Origin: a virus
Strand: one strand, 5' to 3'
Length of the DNA: 40,289 nucleotides
Virus record (IMG/VR): IMGVR_UViG_3300043449_001129
Coordinates: 1-40,289 of that record
Shown here: piece by piece, positions 24,637-35,424 of the stretch
Numbering within the stretch: position 1 is the first letter of the stretch
Layout of the letters: each line of letters starts with the position of its first letter
Notes under the pieces: generated by a model
The model's input: the letters and a program-made list of their open reading frames with translations, nothing else
Databases searched by the model: none
Told to the model about the DNA's origin: nothing
Position numbers and translations under genes: made by a program

Positions 24637-25536
24637 ATGGCATGGGTCGATCCGAGCACGCGCTCGACGGGATACACGATTCCGGCAACGGAGTGGAACC
24701 AGAACACCGTCGAGAATCCGCAGGCGTTGCGCGATCTGCTGGAGGGCGGCACGGCGGGCCAGATCTTGACGGCGGTGGGCGGCGGCACGATTTCCGACTG
24801 GGCCACGCCTGCGGGCTATGTCGAACAGAGCACGTCGAGCACGGGCGCGCAGCATAACGTTAGTCTGTCGTCCCGTCGCACGTATCTGCGTTGCACGGGC
24901 ACCGCGCCTGAGTTCTCCGGGTTTACCGTGGGCGGCGCTGCGCCAGCGGCGGGGGACACGGTGATCGTGGATTGCCTCGGCACGACCACGAAAGTATTCC
25001 ATGAGTCGTCGTCCTCGACGGCGGCGAACCGGATCATCTGTCCGAGCAGTAACGGCCAGATTGTCGGGGCTAGCGGGCGGATGCTCTTGGTCTATGACGC
25101 GACGACAAGCCGGTGGCGTGAATCCCTTATTGATACGGGAGCGCCGATCACCGTGACGTTTAATGCTGGCGACTATACGGCTGATACCGTCTACGATCCC
25201 ACGGCAGCATGGACGGTGGATAGTGGCGATGTCGTGCTTGATACGTATATCCAGCGCGGCAATGTCATCACACTCAATACCATCATCGTGACCAGTTCAA
25301 CTACCGGCTTTATGGAAGAATTGCGGAAAGCCGTGCCCGGGGGATTTTCGCTGTCATCGTACTCGGTTAATTTGATCAATGACCTCGGATCGCTTGGTGC
25401 AAACATTGAACCCAGTTACATTGTTGTCAAGTCAGGCGTGACGACATATCTGGCATTTCCTGCGCAATCCGCTTTTTACGATCAGACCAACACTATTTAT
25501 CTCTACTGCAACAATCAGTCCTTCGAGGTGGACTAA
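24637..25536 (+). CDS. Tail fibre or tip protein
   Basis: 299-residue protein with AAGGAG and ATG 24637. It begins AWVDPSTRSTGYTIPATEWN, a start found in many phage tail proteins, with GTAGQILTAVGGGTISDW (about 35-55) as in fibre proteins that carry GGTxGQxLT repeats. The rest is beta-rich with few charges. The C-terminal half has more A+T-rich codons than its neighbours, a possible sign of a separately acquired receptor-binding domain. No hydrolase motif is seen. Confidence 0.72.
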   Translation: MAWVDPSTRSTGYTIPATEWNQNTVENPQALRDLLEGGTAGQILTAVGGGTISDWATPAGYVEQSTSSTGAQHNVSLSSRRTYLRCTGTAPEFSGFTVGGAAPAAGDTVIVDCLGTTTKVFHESSSSTAANRIICPSSNGQIVGASGRMLLVYDATTSRWRESLIDTGAPITVTFNAGDYTADTVYDPTAAWTVDSGDVVLDTYIQRGNVITLNTIIVTSSTTGFMEELRKAVPGGFSLSSYSVNLINDLGSLGANIEPSYIVVKSGVTTYLAFPAQSAFYDQTNTIYLYCNNQSFEVD

Positions 25537-30532: not shown

Positions 30533-30952
30533 TCACGCCTTCGGAGTTCCGCGCTTGGCTGGCTTATCAATCGCTTCCGTGTTGGAAGCGGGCGTTGTGT
30601 CTGAGATTCGCACGCGATGTATCTGGCGCCCACGCGGCCGCTGTTTCGGCGCCAGCGCCCACACGTAGCCGCGCGCTGCGTCCCGACGATCGTGAGGGAC
30701 GGCACGGTAGGCGTCGATGAGATCCTGCTCGTCCTCCGACGCGCGTAGGTCGAGCAGCTCAGTGAGGGTGTGCCCAAAGGCGCCCGCCATAGCGGCGAGT
30801 TCATCGAGGCTGGCCTCGACGAGTCCTTTCCGGTAGCTACTGACCCAGGGCTGAAAATGTCCGGCGGCTTCCGCGACCTGCTTCTGGGTCACCTTGGGAT
30901 TGGTATCTAGCCAGAGTGCGATGCGGCGCCGTGCGCGCTCGTCGAGGCTCAT
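30533..30952 (-). CDS. XRE-family repressor (CI-like)
   Basis: 139-residue helix-turn-helix protein. The HTH is KVTQKQVAEAAGHFQPWVSSYRKGL (given here as TQKQVAEAAG ... WVSSYRKG), followed by SLDELAAMAGAFGHTLTELL. The rest is basic with no LexA-type protease motif, so it is not RecA-cleavable by the usual route. GGGAGG (on the - strand, 30961-30966) precedes the ATG by eight bases. It is divergent from the Cro-like gene, and a promoter (TTGCGG, 17, TAAAAT) can be read at 30989-31017. This layout identifies it as the maintenance repressor. Confidence 0.85.
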   Translation of the reverse strand: MSLDERARRRIALWLDTNPKVTQKQVAEAAGHFQPWVSSYRKGLVEASLDELAAMAGAFGHTLTELLDLRASEDEQDLIDAYRAVPHDRRDAARGYVWALAPKQRPRGRQIHRVRISDTTPASNTEAIDKPAKRGTPKA

Positions 30953-30977: not shown

Positions 30978-31006
30978 TTGACTTATAAATTTTAGTTCTA
31001 TATATT
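30978..31006 (+). promoter_or_regulatory. Rightward promoter for Cro-like/early genes (PR-like)
   Basis: TTGACT at 30978-30983, a 17-base spacer and TATATT at 31001-31006 form a near-consensus sigma70 promoter. The expected start of transcription is about 31013, only a few bases before the Cro-like ATG at 31017, so the mRNA would be leaderless or almost so. The region is unusually A+T-rich for this genome. Confidence 0.75.
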
Positions 31007-31017
31007 CCGAACCGCAA
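30989..31017 (-). promoter_or_regulatory. Leftward promoter for the repressor (PRM-like)
   Basis: On the - strand TTGCGG (31017 down to 31012), 17 bases, and TAAAAT (30994 down to 30989). It overlaps the rightward promoter completely, so one RNA polymerase would block the other. This gives a compact face-to-face switch. The 5' end of the repressor message would be about 30 bases before its ATG (30952), with GGGAGG inside. Confidence 0.6.
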
Positions 31018-31235
31018 TGAAGAACCGATACAAGTCGCTTGCGGATTACCTCGCCAGCACCGGCCAAACGCAGGAGGGCCTAGCTCTTGCGTTGGGCATT
31101 GGACAGTCGCAGATCTCGAATTACGTGGCCGGCCGCAGCATGCCGCGCCCGGCGTTGGCCTTGCAGATCGCTGAGCACACGGGCGTGCCGGTCGAGGCGT
31201 TGCTCCGCGCGCGAGTCGAAGGCGTGGCGAGCTAA
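31017..31235 (+). CDS. Cro-like XRE helix-turn-helix protein
   Basis: 72-residue protein: KSLADYLASTGQTQEGLALALGIGQSQISNYVAGRSMP (quoted in two parts here: TQEGLALALGIGQSQISNYV), a classic HTH with recognition helix QSQISNYV, and a short dimerisation end. It is divergent from the repressor and the first gene of the rightward operon, as lambda Cro is. The predicted transcript starts a few bases before the ATG and no Shine-Dalgarno is present, so a leaderless start is likely. It is spaced six bases from the next ORF. Confidence 0.85.
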   Translation: MKNRYKSLADYLASTGQTQEGLALALGIGQSQISNYVAGRSMPRPALALQIAEHTGVPVEALLRARVEGVAS

Positions 31236-31241
31236 AAGGCG

Positions 31242-31556
31242 ATGCGCGTCATTCCGCAACCCGATCCGCTCAGCCAGCGCACGTTGCTCACGATGCGCGA
31301 GCTGGCGATCTATCTGGGCTACTCCGGCAAACACGGCTACATCGCCGCGCACAAATTCGTGGCGCGTGCGGGTCTGCGGCGCGGCTGGCGTGGCCGGTGC
31401 GTCGTGGTGCGTCGTGACCAGGTGGACGGCGTGATGTTCGGCCTACGGCAAGTCACTCACGACAACAGGGGGGCGAGCGATGACCACGGACGATCCCGAG
31501 GCGGACGACCACGGCGGGCGATTGCTGTCGAGTGTGGCGTTGGTGCTGGCGCTTAA
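31242..31556 (+). CDS. Excisionase-like / small helix-turn-helix protein
   Basis: 104-residue basic protein. The region LTMRELAIYLGYSGKHGYIAAHKF and RGWRGRCVVVRRDQVD looks like a winged or MerR-type HTH of the excisionase family (HTH_17-like): helix, turn, helix, and a two-strand wing. The C-terminus is basic and disordered. Its place just after the Cro-like gene fits Xis or CII-type roles. It overlaps the next small ORF (31480) by 77 bases in another frame, so the end part may be loosely constrained. Confidence 0.65.
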   Translation: MRVIPQPDPLSQRTLLTMRELAIYLGYSGKHGYIAAHKFVARAGLRRGWRGRCVVVRRDQVDGVMFGLRQVTHDNRGASDDHGRSRGGRPRRAIAVECGVGAGA

Positions 31557-31753: not shown

Positions 31754-32377
31754 GTGAAAAATTCCATTCATCGACTGGTGCGCGCCGAGCAGTGGGCCGA
31801 CCAAATCTGCACACAGCTCGGGAAGTCCGTCGAGTCGATCATCGAAGTCGGTCGGCTCCTATCGAAAGCAAAGGCGGATCTCGCGCACGGCGAGTGGGGC
31901 CGCATTTTCGACGAGCGGTTGATTCCGGTAAGCCATCGAACAGCCAACTTCTACATGGTCGTCGCGTCCCACCCCCTGGTTTCAAATTCGAAAAATTTTT
32001 CGAATTTGCCGGCCACTGTTTCAACTCTCTACAAGTTGACGAAGCTCCCAGAACCAACGCTCAAGCACGCCCTTGCCGACGGGTTGATCACGCCAGACAT
32101 GCCGAGCAAGGCCGTGAAAGCGCTGCTCCCAGTAGAGCGGAAGCCGGCGCCGGTCATCGACGTCTTGAGCGCACAGGCCGATGCCGTCGACGACTTCGAA
32201 ATGCCGCGCTGGGCCGACGACGAGATCAGAACGCGTGTGCAGGCCGCACTGCAACCCGTGCGCGAACTGATCGAAGGGTGGCCGGACGATCAGGACTTCT
32301 CACTCCTGATGCACCAGCTCACGCAGATCACCCGCTACATTGAAAGGTTGGCTCAGCGCCATGAAGTATCCGCCTAA
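31754..32377 (+). CDS. DUF3102-like phage protein
   Basis: 207-residue protein. GTG 31754 is preferred, following GGAGG (31745-31749); a GTG at 31712 is an in-frame alternative without a ribosome binding site and would overlap the lipoprotein. The start region VESIIEVGRLLSKAKADLAHGEWGRIFDERLIPVSHRTANFYMVVA, quoted as IIEVGRLLSKAKADL and HGEWGRIFDE, is the DUF3102 pattern (an entry with SxRTAxxxM...), a helical family common in phages and plasmids and suspected to bind DNA. Residues 81-93 contain SNSKNFSNLP. The end overlaps the GHKL ATPase start by 17 bases. Confidence 0.75.
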   Translation: MKNSIHRLVRAEQWADQICTQLGKSVESIIEVGRLLSKAKADLAHGEWGRIFDERLIPVSHRTANFYMVVASHPLVSNSKNFSNLPATVSTLYKLTKLPEPTLKHALADGLITPDMPSKAVKALLPVERKPAPVIDVLSAQADAVDDFEMPRWADDEIRTRVQAALQPVRELIEGWPDDQDFSLLMHQLTQITRYIERLAQRHEVSA

Positions 32378-33782
32378 CGGGAACATCCTCCGCGCGTTTG
32401 CGATGGGCAAGATAGGGTGGCCGTCCGCGATGGCTGAGTGGGTTGATAACGCGTTCGACCGTCATTCCACGCGTGTCTCATTCGTGTTTGAAAAGAACGT
32501 CCTGACGATTCAAGACGACGGAGAGGGAACGCCGACGCCGCACGCCATCGTGCAGCCCGGTCATCACACGCCGTCATCCGACGGACTTGGCGAGTTTGGC
32601 GTCGGCGGCTCGGAGTCGCTTCTGTGGGCCGGCGGCGAGAAGTCAAGCGTGTCGATCTTGAGCACACATCGAGGTATGACGCGCGAGCTCGAAATGAACT
32701 GGTCGGAATACGCGCGCTCTGAATGGGAGTTGCCAGATCCAAAGGAACGCCCCGCATTGCCGGGCGAGATCGGCACCCGCATCCAAGTCACGCCGGTCAA
32801 GGCCACACGGCCGCGGAGTTTCGACGCGCTGTGCGCTGAGCTGGGCTACATCTACGCGCACGCTATCCGGCGAGAAAATAAACAGATAGCGATCAAGACG
32901 ACAGGGGGAGAGCGTCCGCGTCTCGTCGTGCCCTGGACACCACCACCGTTTGACCTACGGCTCCGCCAAGTCAACGAAGTCATCCAGGTCGGCAAGCGCA
33001 CGGCGACGGTGCGCGCCGGAGTCGTTGCGGAGGGTGCGCGGAACGAGCGCTACGGCATCACGTATTGGTATCGCTACCGCGTCGTGTTTCCTAATTCTGT
33101 TAAGGGATGTGGCAGCTTCAATCCGACTCGCGTCTCTGGCTTTGTCGAACTGCTCGACGGGTGGAAAAGCAATCTCGGTCGAAGGAAGGACGAGATCGCG
33201 CTCGAGGCTGAGGAACTGTTCGCAGAGGTTGAGCGCGTGATGCGCCCTGTATTAGAGGACGCCGAACGCGCTGGTTCGACGTTCACTCTGAACGAACTGA
33301 GCCAGCGGCTGGAGTCCCGCATTGCCGCCGCGCTAAACCCACACGCGCCGGATTCGAAAGCGCGTCGACCTGGCGATGCCGATCAGGATGGTACGGTCGA
33401 GCCAAAGAACACGGGACGGAAGCACAAGCGAGCGGCCATCGATCAGCCTGGCTCAAGGTTTAGTGGAGCCAGCGGCGGCCGGGGCTTGCGCGTGGCCTAC
33501 CAAAATCTTGGAGGCGACAGCGTTGGCGAATGTAAGCCGCCATTCGTGATTCTGAATCTTGACAATTCCTTTATTGCCGACGCAACAAAACGAGCTGACG
33601 ACGACACATTGATCGTGGTCGTCGCGGCATTGATCGCCGACTGGGATGCACAACAGCCTGACAGCAAAGAGCGCTACTTCCGCGGCGTGTTGCGGTCATT
33701 TTCCGACCAGTTCGGTGTGGCGCTCAAGGCTTCGCCGTCGTTGGACGGCCGGCAACTCCTAGCGAAAGCAGTCGCGCGGTAA
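32361..33782 (+). CDS. GHKL-type ATPase (Hsp90/MORC/HATPase_c_3-like)
   Basis: 473-residue protein; ATG 32361 chosen over TTG 32340. All three Bergerat-fold boxes are present: EWVDNAFD (E26, D29, N30), DDGEGT (about 52-57) and GLGEFGVGGSESL (75-87). A transducer-like region follows with GTRIQVTPV near 140-150 and FDALCAELGYIYAHA near 162. The C-terminal third has a basic linker (RRPGDADQDGTVEPKNTGRK, given in part) and a last domain with RYFRGVLRSF. MORC- and Hsp90-like ATPases clamp DNA or proteins by ATP-driven dimerisation. In phages the role is unknown. It is preceded by the DUF3102-like gene with an overlap and is followed by a palindrome at 33789. Confidence 0.85.
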   Translation: MKYPPNGNILRAFAMGKIGWPSAMAEWVDNAFDRHSTRVSFVFEKNVLTIQDDGEGTPTPHAIVQPGHHTPSSDGLGEFGVGGSESLLWAGGEKSSVSILSTHRGMTRELEMNWSEYARSEWELPDPKERPALPGEIGTRIQVTPVKATRPRSFDALCAELGYIYAHAIRRENKQIAIKTTGGERPRLVVPWTPPPFDLRLRQVNEVIQVGKRTATVRAGVVAEGARNERYGITYWYRYRVVFPNSVKGCGSFNPTRVSGFVELLDGWKSNLGRRKDEIALEAEELFAEVERVMRPVLEDAERAGSTFTLNELSQRLESRIAAALNPHAPDSKARRPGDADQDGTVEPKNTGRKHKRAAIDQPGSRFSGASGGRGLRVAYQNLGGDSVGECKPPFVILNLDNSFIADATKRADDDTLIVVVAALIADWDAQQPDSKERYFRGVLRSFSDQFGVALKASPSLDGRQLLAKAVAR

Positions 33783-34011: not shown

Positions 34012-34211
34012 TCCGCTCGGTCACCGGCCTGGACGATCCACGCGAAGGCGAGCAGGACGGCTGGTGCCCGCATGACCTGCGGTGCGAGTCGTGCCCGCTC
34101 TGCCGTGAGGACGGCGACGAGATGAGCACCGACCAGGCGTATGAGGCGCTGGCGCAGTTCCTCCGCGACAAATTGGATCAGGTTTCGACCAACAAAAAGG
34201 GGGCGGCATGA
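34008..34211 (+). CDS. Small Cys-rich protein ahead of ERF
   Basis: 67-residue protein starting at GTG (GTGA overlap). CPHDLRCESCPLC (about residues 20-32) could bind one zinc ion, and the second half is helical (STDQAYEALAQFLRDKLDQV). It has a Gly/Ala end, and its stop overlaps the ERF start (ATGA). Small zinc proteins next to recombination genes are frequent in phages; its partner is not known. Confidence 0.65.
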   Translation: MIRSVTGLDDPREGEQDGWCPHDLRCESCPLCREDGDEMSTDQAYEALAQFLRDKLDQVSTNKKGAA

Positions 34212-34789
34212 CATCAGCAACCACAGGCGCACTGGCGGCGGCGCTGGCGAAGGCGCAGTCCAGTATTGACGGCGCGAAGAAGGACGCCAACAACCCGCAC
34301 TTCAAGCAGCGATACGCCGATCTGGCGTCGACCTGGCAGGCATGCCGAGCCGCGCTCTTCGTGAATGGCCTGGCCGTGGTGCAGACCACAGAGGCCCGCG
34401 AGTCTGGCGCGGTGCTCGTGACTCGCCTACTGCACACGTCCGGGGAATGGGTGCAGGGCGAGACGCCGCTCCTGCTAGGCAGGGCGGACATGCAGGGCCT
34501 GGGCTCTGCGATCACCTATGCGCGCCGTTACGGGCTGGCGGCTATCGTGGGCGTATCGCCAGAGGACGATGACGGCAACGCGGCGGTGGGTGATGGCCGG
34601 CCGGCCGCGAAGGCGGCACCAAAGCCCGAGGGCTATGACGCCTGGCTGCTCGACATGGAGGCGGCGGCGGACACCGGTTTGGACGAGTTGACGCGGGCCT
34701 GGAAAGACAGCCCGCCACCGCTCCGCGCCTACATGCCGCATGACGTCCGGGACAACCTCAAGGCGCGGGCGGGCAAGGTGGCCGCGTGA
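34208..34789 (+). CDS. erf: ERF-family single-strand annealing protein
   Basis: 193-residue recombinase of the ERF kind, which pairs complementary DNA strands in phage recombination. It has the conserved start LAAALAKAQSSIDGAKKDANNPHFKQRYADLASTWQACRAAL (shown as NNPHFKQRYADLASTW), GLAVVQTTEA, VLVTRLLHTSGEWVQGE and LGSAITYARRYGLAAIVGV, all ERF marks, at about residues 25-120. The last third is acidic then helical (RAWKDSPPPLRAY). ATG 34208 overlaps the previous stop and its own stop overlaps the exonuclease start, as usual for an exonuclease-annealing pair. Confidence 0.92.
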   Translation: MTSATTGALAAALAKAQSSIDGAKKDANNPHFKQRYADLASTWQACRAALFVNGLAVVQTTEARESGAVLVTRLLHTSGEWVQGETPLLLGRADMQGLGSAITYARRYGLAAIVGVSPEDDDGNAAVGDGRPAAKAAPKPEGYDAWLLDMEAAADTGLDELTRAWKDSPPPLRAYMPHDVRDNLKARAGKVAA

Positions 34790-35424
34790 GCTACACGCAC
34801 ATTGACGCACCACAGCGCAGCGACGACTGGTTCGCCGCGCGCCTGGGCCGGCTTACCGGCTCACGGGCCAAGGACATGCTGGCCGTCATTAAAAACGGTG
34901 AAGCGGCCAGCCGGCGCGACTTACGCGCGCAGCTCGTGGTCGAGCGGCTCACTAGCCGACCCGCTGAGGACGTGTACGTCAACGACGACATGCAGCGCGG
35001 CATCGACCTCGAGGACGCCGCTCGGCAAGCCTACGAGGCGCACAGCGGCAACCTAGTGGAGGCGTGTGGGTTCCTACAGCACACCACGCTCATGGCGGGT
35101 TTCTCGCCTGACGGGCTGGTGGGTGCGGACGGCCTGATCGAGATCAAGTGTCCGCGGCTGGCCACGCATTACCGGCGGCTCACCTCGAGCAGTGCGCCGT
35201 CTGAAGTGCTGCCGCAAGTGACGCATGGGCTGTGGCTGACTGGCCGCGCCTGGGCCGACATCGTGAGCTACGACGACCGATTCCCTTTAGACATGCAGCT
35301 TTGCGTGCATCGGGTCATGGCGGTGGATCTGGCGCTCGACGACTACGCCGTGAAGGTCGTTTCGTTCTTGGCAGAAGTGGACAGGGACTTGGCCGCGGTG
35401 CGCGGTTTAAAGGCGGTGGCGTGA
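34786..35424 (+). CDS. YqaJ/lambda-type 5'-3' exonuclease
   Basis: 212-residue alkaline-type exonuclease that makes single-stranded tails for the ERF protein. The GTG overlaps the ERF stop (GTGA). Family marks: SDDWFAARLGRLTGSRAKDML at the start, GIDLEDAARQAYEA (about 84-97), then FSPDGLVGADGLIEIKCPR, with catalytic D of SPDGL and E-x-K of IEIKC (about 107-124), and HGLWLTGRAWADIVSYD (about 145-161). All are at the expected spacing. The following gene starts within the stop (TGATG). Confidence 0.92.
   Translation: MSYTHIDAPQRSDDWFAARLGRLTGSRAKDMLAVIKNGEAASRRDLRAQLVVERLTSRPAEDVYVNDDMQRGIDLEDAARQAYEAHSGNLVEACGFLQHTTLMAGFSPDGLVGADGLIEIKCPRLATHYRRLTSSSAPSEVLPQVTHGLWLTGRAWADIVSYDDRFPLDMQLCVHRVMAVDLALDDYAVKVVSFLAEVDRDLAAVRGLKAVA

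Follow-up and report, generated by a model that had tools for sequence, protein, structure and literature searches.

Results

The locus

The window examined here is the whole 40,289-bp stretch of an IMG/VR virus record, and it holds terminase, portal, protease and capsid genes. Because it encodes an integrase and a divergent repressor alongside these structural genes, we consider the phage to be temperate. Two genes, for a DUF3102-like protein and a GHKL ATPase, come after a Cro-like gene with its promoter-like site and before the Erf and YqaJ genes (Table 1), which places the pair within an early block that is expected to be repressed in the lysogen. Two promoter-like sites were found in the region, compared with 0.6 in shuffled sequences; such sites are consensus matches and not proof of promoters. 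The DUF3102-like and GHKL genes have GC contents of 0.585 and 0.603, against a phage median of 0.656, and in all six loci compared below the GHKL gene is lower in GC than its surroundings. A low GC content fits an acquired accessory, but could equally be explained by protein composition.

Table 1. Features of the early region of the window (positions in the 40,289-bp stretch)
Feature	Position	Strand	Basis
Divergent HTH gene, probable repressor	30533..30952	-	HTH_3 0.0025; phrog_4583 repressor 7.5e-6
Sigma-70-like promoter TTGACT-17-TATATT, candidate early rightward	30978..31006	+	Upstream of Cro-like gene; 10/12 consensus positions
Cro-like HTH protein, first early-operon gene	31017..31235	+	HTH_3 3e-10
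Small ORF, HTH/excisionase look	31242..31556	+	Between Cro and DUF3102 genes; no convincing family match
DUF3102-like protein, probable DNA-binding partner, 207 aa	31754..32377	+	GTG start after GGAGG; longest ORF from 31712
Overlap of DUF3102-like and GHKL genes, 17 bp	32361..32377	+	Sequence
GHKL (MORC-like) ATPase, 473 aa	32361..33782	+	ATG 32361 to stop 33782; HATPase_c_3 1.2e-6
N box E26-W-V-D29-N30 (catalytic Glu, Mg-binding Asn)	32436..32450	+	
G1 box D52-D-G-E-G56 (adenine-binding)	32514..32528	+	
G2 / ATP-lid box G77-E-F-G-V-G82	32589..32606	+	
S5-domain lysine K276 in WKSNLGRRK (WKxxLxxxK)	33186..33188	+	Invariant in six phage homologues
Small C-terminal alpha/beta domain, residues about 377-432	33489..33656	+	Alignable between window and L018; model pLDDT about 73-83
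Erf-like single-strand annealing protein	34208..34789	+	Downstream neighbour; PF04404 6.4e-18, phrog_2324 8.5e-36
YqaJ-type recombination exonuclease	34786..35424	+	Downstream neighbour; PF09588 1.3e-21

The ATPase and its active site

The initial annotation, made from the sequence alone, had placed a GHKL ATPase with intact ATP-binding boxes at this locus, overlapping a DUF3102-like gene, and both statements were borne out. The reading frame stands as annotated and scores 29 bits with Pfam HATPase_c_3 (cut-off 25), and the N, G1 and G2/lid boxes, with the catalytic Glu and the Mg-binding Asn, place the protein in the GHKL ATPase superfamily. Within this superfamily it belongs to the GHKL-S5 class, as residues 2-308 align with the ATPase modules of MORC, GyrB and topoisomerase VI and K276 is invariant. 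A Pfam scan of the window ATPase found no domain besides HATPase_c. In an alignment of the six phage homologues, E26, D29, N30, D52-D53-G54, G56, G80 and G82 are invariant, as are R240, W268, L272 and K276. Since the active-site residues are invariant at only 21-28% identity to the query, catalysis is under selection.

Fold and family placement

An AlphaFold2 model built from seven sequences had a mean pLDDT of 68; values of 80-95 were reached over most of its GHKL and S5 parts. When this model was aligned with solved structures by VIA-align, the eleven best matches were all to MORC2, MORC3, MORC4 and SMCHD1 (Z 17.4-19.6 over about 280 residues); Z was 19 to MORC3 and SMCHD1, MORC2 solved with DNA was among the best matches, and Hsp90, topoisomerase VI and GyrB ranked behind. 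The order of Foldseek E-values is different and puts MutL/MLH1-type proteins first, so that MORC does not stand out by fold alone. When the six phage proteins were searched as a profile against the PDB, MORC2 came first (1.2e-9), followed by PMS2 (2e-7).

Membership of the MORC family proper is defined by the S5 motif GhXhhpXXRhl (Iyer, Abhiman and Aravind 2008, PMC2292703). At the S5 position this motif is present in five of five bacterial relatives and in none of the six phage proteins, which retain its arginine (R240). Because the fold is MORC-like but the S5 motif is absent, we describe the phage ATPase as MORC-like and not as MORC sensu stricto. What it has in common with MORC2/3/4 and SMCHD1, its best VIA-align and profile matches, is the GHKL and S5 ATPase module; it differs from the MORC family in lacking the S5 motif and the CW zinc finger, and in having a DUF3102 or ParB-like partner encoded next to it. 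The earlier label of "Hsp90/MORC-like" therefore stands in its second half, with regard to fold, whereas Hsp90 is a more distant cousin: the window protein has no HSP90 Pfam match, and its superposition on Hsp90 by VIA-align is good only over GHKL-S5, with a full-chain rmsd of about 15-18 Å.

The DUF3102-like partner

The partner exceeds the PF11300 (DUF3102) cut-off with 26.1 bits against 24.4, in a narrow and partial match to residues 40-86 of the long ORF. Its structure model (pLDDT 46) was too poor for use. Relatives of the protein are DeadP gp51 (2e-23) and the product of L014:3150-3788 (3e-7). DeadP gp51 (L003:6013-6810) is itself a DUF3102 protein, and its C-terminal part of about 60 residues reappears, at 73% identity, in a 'ParB-like' protein encoded by Gordonia phage Ecliptus and, at 47%, in a DNA-binding protein of the mycobacterial prophage prophiGD43A-5. 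This sharing links DUF3102 to ParB-type proteins and supports a role on DNA, and we infer that DUF3102 binds DNA; a search for common ancestry of DUF3102 and ParB gave no detectable homology signal.

DUF3102 is not an obligate partner of the ATPase. None of 30 clostridial DUF3102 loci has the ATPase within about 1.5 kb and DeadP is also without it; by itself, DUF3102 usually occurs without a GHKL ATPase. As a separate observation, DUF3102 is multicopy in 5 of 398 clostridial genomes, with at least 10 matches each and a GHKL gene not nearby, which suggests spread on mobile elements.

Viral relatives of the ATPase

A search of 50,697 phage records (E<=1e-5) returned a sole match, gp96 of Mycobacterium phage Bobby. 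Annotated as a hypothetical protein, it is a full-length homologue of the window ATPase (26% identity over 344 aa, 5e-25). Among 2.9 million IMG/VR contigs, four carry relatives, here called L014 (= L011/L016), L015, L017 and L018; this count is a lower bound, as the scans require an exact motif. These contigs came to light through a two-box DNA pattern with degenerate positions and an alignment of three sequences; scanning IMG/VR with one protein at a time (window, Bobby or DUF3102) returned no relatives, and neither did the first two alignments. The five viral relatives are 21-28% identical to the window ATPase. Two other pattern matches, L010 and L020, were rejected as other GHKL types.

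The initial annotation considered such ATPases rare in phages of this size and proposed the pairing with DUF3102 as a functional unit, to be examined through its co-occurrence in phages and plasmids. Rarity holds for the window's own family, given one match in the phage records and four contigs in IMG/VR, but not for GHKL proteins generally, since RIIA and topoisomerases are not rare. The association recurs in phages, whereas plasmids searched with the window and Bobby GHKL proteins gave no match. The idea of a unit is strengthened by DUF3102-GHKL pairs in two other phages and ParB-GHKL pairs in three, although DUF3102 itself is not constant. In the open-access literature, we found no paper on a phage GHKL-ParB or GHKL-DUF3102 pair.

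A recurring pair

Loci were retrieved by the ATPase alone, the partner being no selection criterion, and in all six a gene for a predicted or probable DNA-binding protein adjoins the ATPase gene. It is DUF3102-like in the window, in L014 (BLASTP 3e-7) and in L015, where it was recognised by alignment through a shared LPPxWxTLYELSxL and has no Pfam match by itself. In the other three the partner is similar to the ParB N-domain or HTH, with matches that all lie below the NCBIfam/Pfam cut-offs: L018 (phrog_4715, 4e-19), L017 (HTH_ParB, 0.0033; 33% identical to the L018 partner) and Bobby gp95, annotated as an HTH DNA-binding domain protein (TIGR00180, 5.9e-6; phrog_4715, 4.6e-6; BLASTP to the L018 partner, 9e-16). 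Five of the six pairs overlap, by 17 bp in the window, 8 in L014, 4 in L015, 8 in L017 and 20 in L018, where the order is reversed and the ParB-like gene lies downstream of the ATPase. Bobby resembles the window in its adjacent DNA-binding partner and in the early position of the pair, after the immunity repressor; it differs in having a ParB-like partner with HTH domains, a 3-bp gap in place of an overlap, and a 110-kb Omegavirus genome.

That six of six ATPase genes adjoin one of two kinds of partner is, by informal judgement, hard to explain by chance. The constant element is a GHKL ATPase with a predicted DNA-binding partner, and not DUF3102 itself. We built a tree of the ATPase module from 12 rows, and on it the phage proteins separate (80/83) from those of restriction-modification, the two sets falling on opposite sides. 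Bobby, with its ParB-like partner, groups with the DUF3102-bearing L014 and L015 at 91/96, and the nearest row to the window by path is L018 (ParB), on a long window branch that is unplaced. On this weakly supported tree, with its one 91/96 branch, the partner types interleave, which suggests that partners may be swapped or interchangeable.

All but one of the six pairs are found in early blocks, either Cro-led or linked to recombination. An early-operon location was seen for the window, Bobby and L015, and exonuclease and/or annealase genes stand beside four of the six. In L014 the pair runs on the other strand from the Cro/replication genes, and no recombination module was identified within the 12.7 kb read there. 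L015 (genome G401) has the terminase and portal families of the window; the other IMG/VR contigs gave no match to these, and their phage nature rests on the IMG/VR classification together with recombination or Cro genes. In L015, an HTH_17 gene occupies the position equivalent to the small ORF at 31242-31556 of the window. A stretch of the same genome (L076:2428-18001) reads as an operon of HTH, DUF3102, GHKL, YqaJ exonuclease and phrog_3657; the last, a family of unassigned function, fills the slot expected for an annealing protein.

Bacterial relatives

Proteins of this GHKL class have been placed in restriction-modification (Iyer et al. 2008, PMC2292703). Our contig search of bacterial genomes found only two restriction-modification relatives, both from Ruminococcus (L004, L005), with the homologue lying between a cytosine methylase gene and Z1 and DUF4420 genes. 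In 398 Firmicutes genomes the matches stand beside methylases, Vsr-like proteins and large Z1-like proteins, the latter names being given by sequence look. The prokaryotic MORC/paraMORC proteins of such operons, of which the Ruminococcus Dcm-GHKL-Z1-DUF4420 arrangement is an example, share the GHKL-S5 architecture with the phage ATPase at about 22% identity over the alignment, and differ in the motif and tree position described above. The phage pair has no such methylase, SFII/Z1 helicase or nuclease next to it: the neighbours in the window are HTH, DUF3102, Erf and YqaJ genes, and YqaJ belongs to the phage recombination module. MORC/paraMORC proteins of restriction-modification systems also bear C-terminal extensions specific to each family (RE-fold nuclease, TIR or HxH domain); at the C-terminus of the window ATPase, Pfam recognised nothing, and the model shows a small alpha/beta fold at residues 377-432 with moderate confidence. 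The window GHKL and DUF3102 proteins had no PADLOC match. Against MzaB (NF041932, cut-off 850 bits) the window protein had no match, and its sister phages L015 and L018 matched weakly, with 28 bits (8e-7). The pair is like the MZA module in having a GHKL ATPase beside DNA-acting proteins, but no Mza partner genes were among the neighbours examined.

Discussion

In this study, we describe a phage MORC-like ATPase and relate it to the genes that accompany it. With the same pairing found again in five other phages of very different kinds, the two genes have the look of a small DNA machine in two parts, as yet unstudied, and not of a stray gene. Our main reading, to which we give a probability of about 0.4, is that the pair would be produced early in the lytic cycle and act as a DNA clamp, gated by ATP and targeted by the partner. 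Its DUF3102-like component, ParB-like in sister phages, would bind phage or host DNA and recruit the ATPase. By analogy with MORC, MutL and GyrB, ATP binding may bring the N-terminal domains of the GHKL-S5 ATPase together in a closed, DNA-trapping dimer, and hydrolysis, aided by the S5 lysine, may reopen it, leaving DNA that would have been trapped, looped or compacted. Precedents for such action come from MORC2, which clamps DNA as a dimer and compacts it by means of ATP hydrolysis (PMC12216690), and from C. elegans MORC-1, which is described as entrapping and condensing DNA (PMC8277788). Since recombination genes lie beside the pair, its likely use would be in the handling of phage DNA, either by organising or shielding DNA that is replicating or recombining, or by fending off the host nucleases that attack it. 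The pairing itself is well supported, and the ATPase fold, its intact active site, the conserved coupled partner and the position in the early operon are seen directly; that the two proteins form a complex, that this complex clamps DNA and that the phage benefits is what we infer. Points that speak against the clamp are the MORC S5 motif missing from all six phage proteins, the poor DUF3102 model and its lack of a homology signal to ParB, and the setting of the L014 pair; the ATPase could also act on proteins, by analogy with Hsp90.

The strongest rival, though on balance unlikely, is counter-defence, in which the early ATPase and its DNA-binding partner would block a host or prophage exclusion system as a compact analogue of T4 rIIA-rIIB. 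In T4, the GHKL ATPase rIIA is regarded as counter-defensive, while rIIB is described as a specific transcription factor (PMC7824862); together, rIIAB confers resistance to RexAB (PMC8594841). In both systems, the phage gene for a GHKL ATPase adjoins one for a putative DNA-binding protein, the early-operon position of our pair would suit anti-defence, and its AT-richer composition is as for an acquired accessory. Nevertheless, specific kinship with rIIA is not seen, as hhalign aligns only 91 N-terminal columns (probability 75), without homology beyond the GHKL domain, and there is no RIIA PHROG match. The window ATPase is also much smaller (473 aa compared with 725 aa for T4 rIIA), and T4 rIIB has no resemblance to either the DUF3102 or the ParB-like partner. 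We regard rIIA-rIIB as an analogue by layout and not as a demonstrated relative. Superinfection exclusion, whereby a prophage-borne ATPase and its partner would attack incoming phages like MORC/paraMORC or MZA modules, was also proposed in the initial annotation, as defence against other phages. We do not favour it and consider it improbable: a Cro-led operon should be silenced by the repressor in the lysogen, and prophage defence is therefore less likely. The operon context of the nearest bacterial relatives (cytosine methylase, Z1 helicase-like protein, Vsr or DUF4420 nuclease) and the weak MzaB matches of L015 and L018 speak for it, but the methylase, helicase and nuclease of such operons do not adjoin the pair, PADLOC recognises neither protein, and the MORC motif of all five tested bacterial relatives is in no phage protein.

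Still less probable is a role as regulator or recombination accessory, in which the target of the ATPase would be either the Erf/RecT-exonuclease reaction or early transcription, comparable to the work of MutL with its nucleases, and no compacting clamp would be formed. MutL and PMS2 are indeed among the best fold and profile matches, and exonuclease or annealase genes neighbour the pair in four of six phages. The order of these genes is, however, inconstant: they follow the pair in the window, L015 and L018 but precede it in L017, and none were found in L014. Intervening genes are also seen, and the closest fold by VIA-align is MORC and not MutL. As for a functionless remnant of a restriction-modification operon, distant kinship with the GHKL proteins of these systems and a low GC content suggestive of acquisition could be cited, but catalytic residues intact in six highly diverged phages, next to a conserved and coupled partner gene, point to continuing selection and make this reading very improbable indeed.

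Returning to the clamp, a more specific version, which we offer tentatively and hold to be less probable than the clamp itself, is a phage-specific two-component system. Here, a MORC-like ATP-gated clamp would be loaded onto DNA by a partner that recognises sites and can be exchanged, either DUF3102 or ParB-like, as a miniature viral machine for organising chromosomes or shielding DNA, with a possible functional parallel to rIIA-rIIB.

MORC ATPases have been studied mainly as eukaryotic chromatin compactors, and their bacterial relatives in restriction systems. At 470-500 aa and with only one small partner, the phage version would offer a minimal system for the targeting of a GHKL-S5 clamp and the role of ATP in it. 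Its recurrent layout of GHKL ATPase and DNA-binding protein would give a new angle on the poorly understood T4 rIIA-rIIB, as well as a first functional lead for DUF3102.

Two minor observations concern other genes. The GHKL genes of the two rejected phage contigs (L020:767-2536 and L010:1015-1860) are of the ELVDNAWDADA type and are possible phage-borne restriction-type genes; that of L020 comes directly after an ORF of nuclease look. In the late region of the window, a 900-bp ORF (24637-25536) has an unusually low GC content of 0.578, against the phage median of 0.656, and was possibly acquired.
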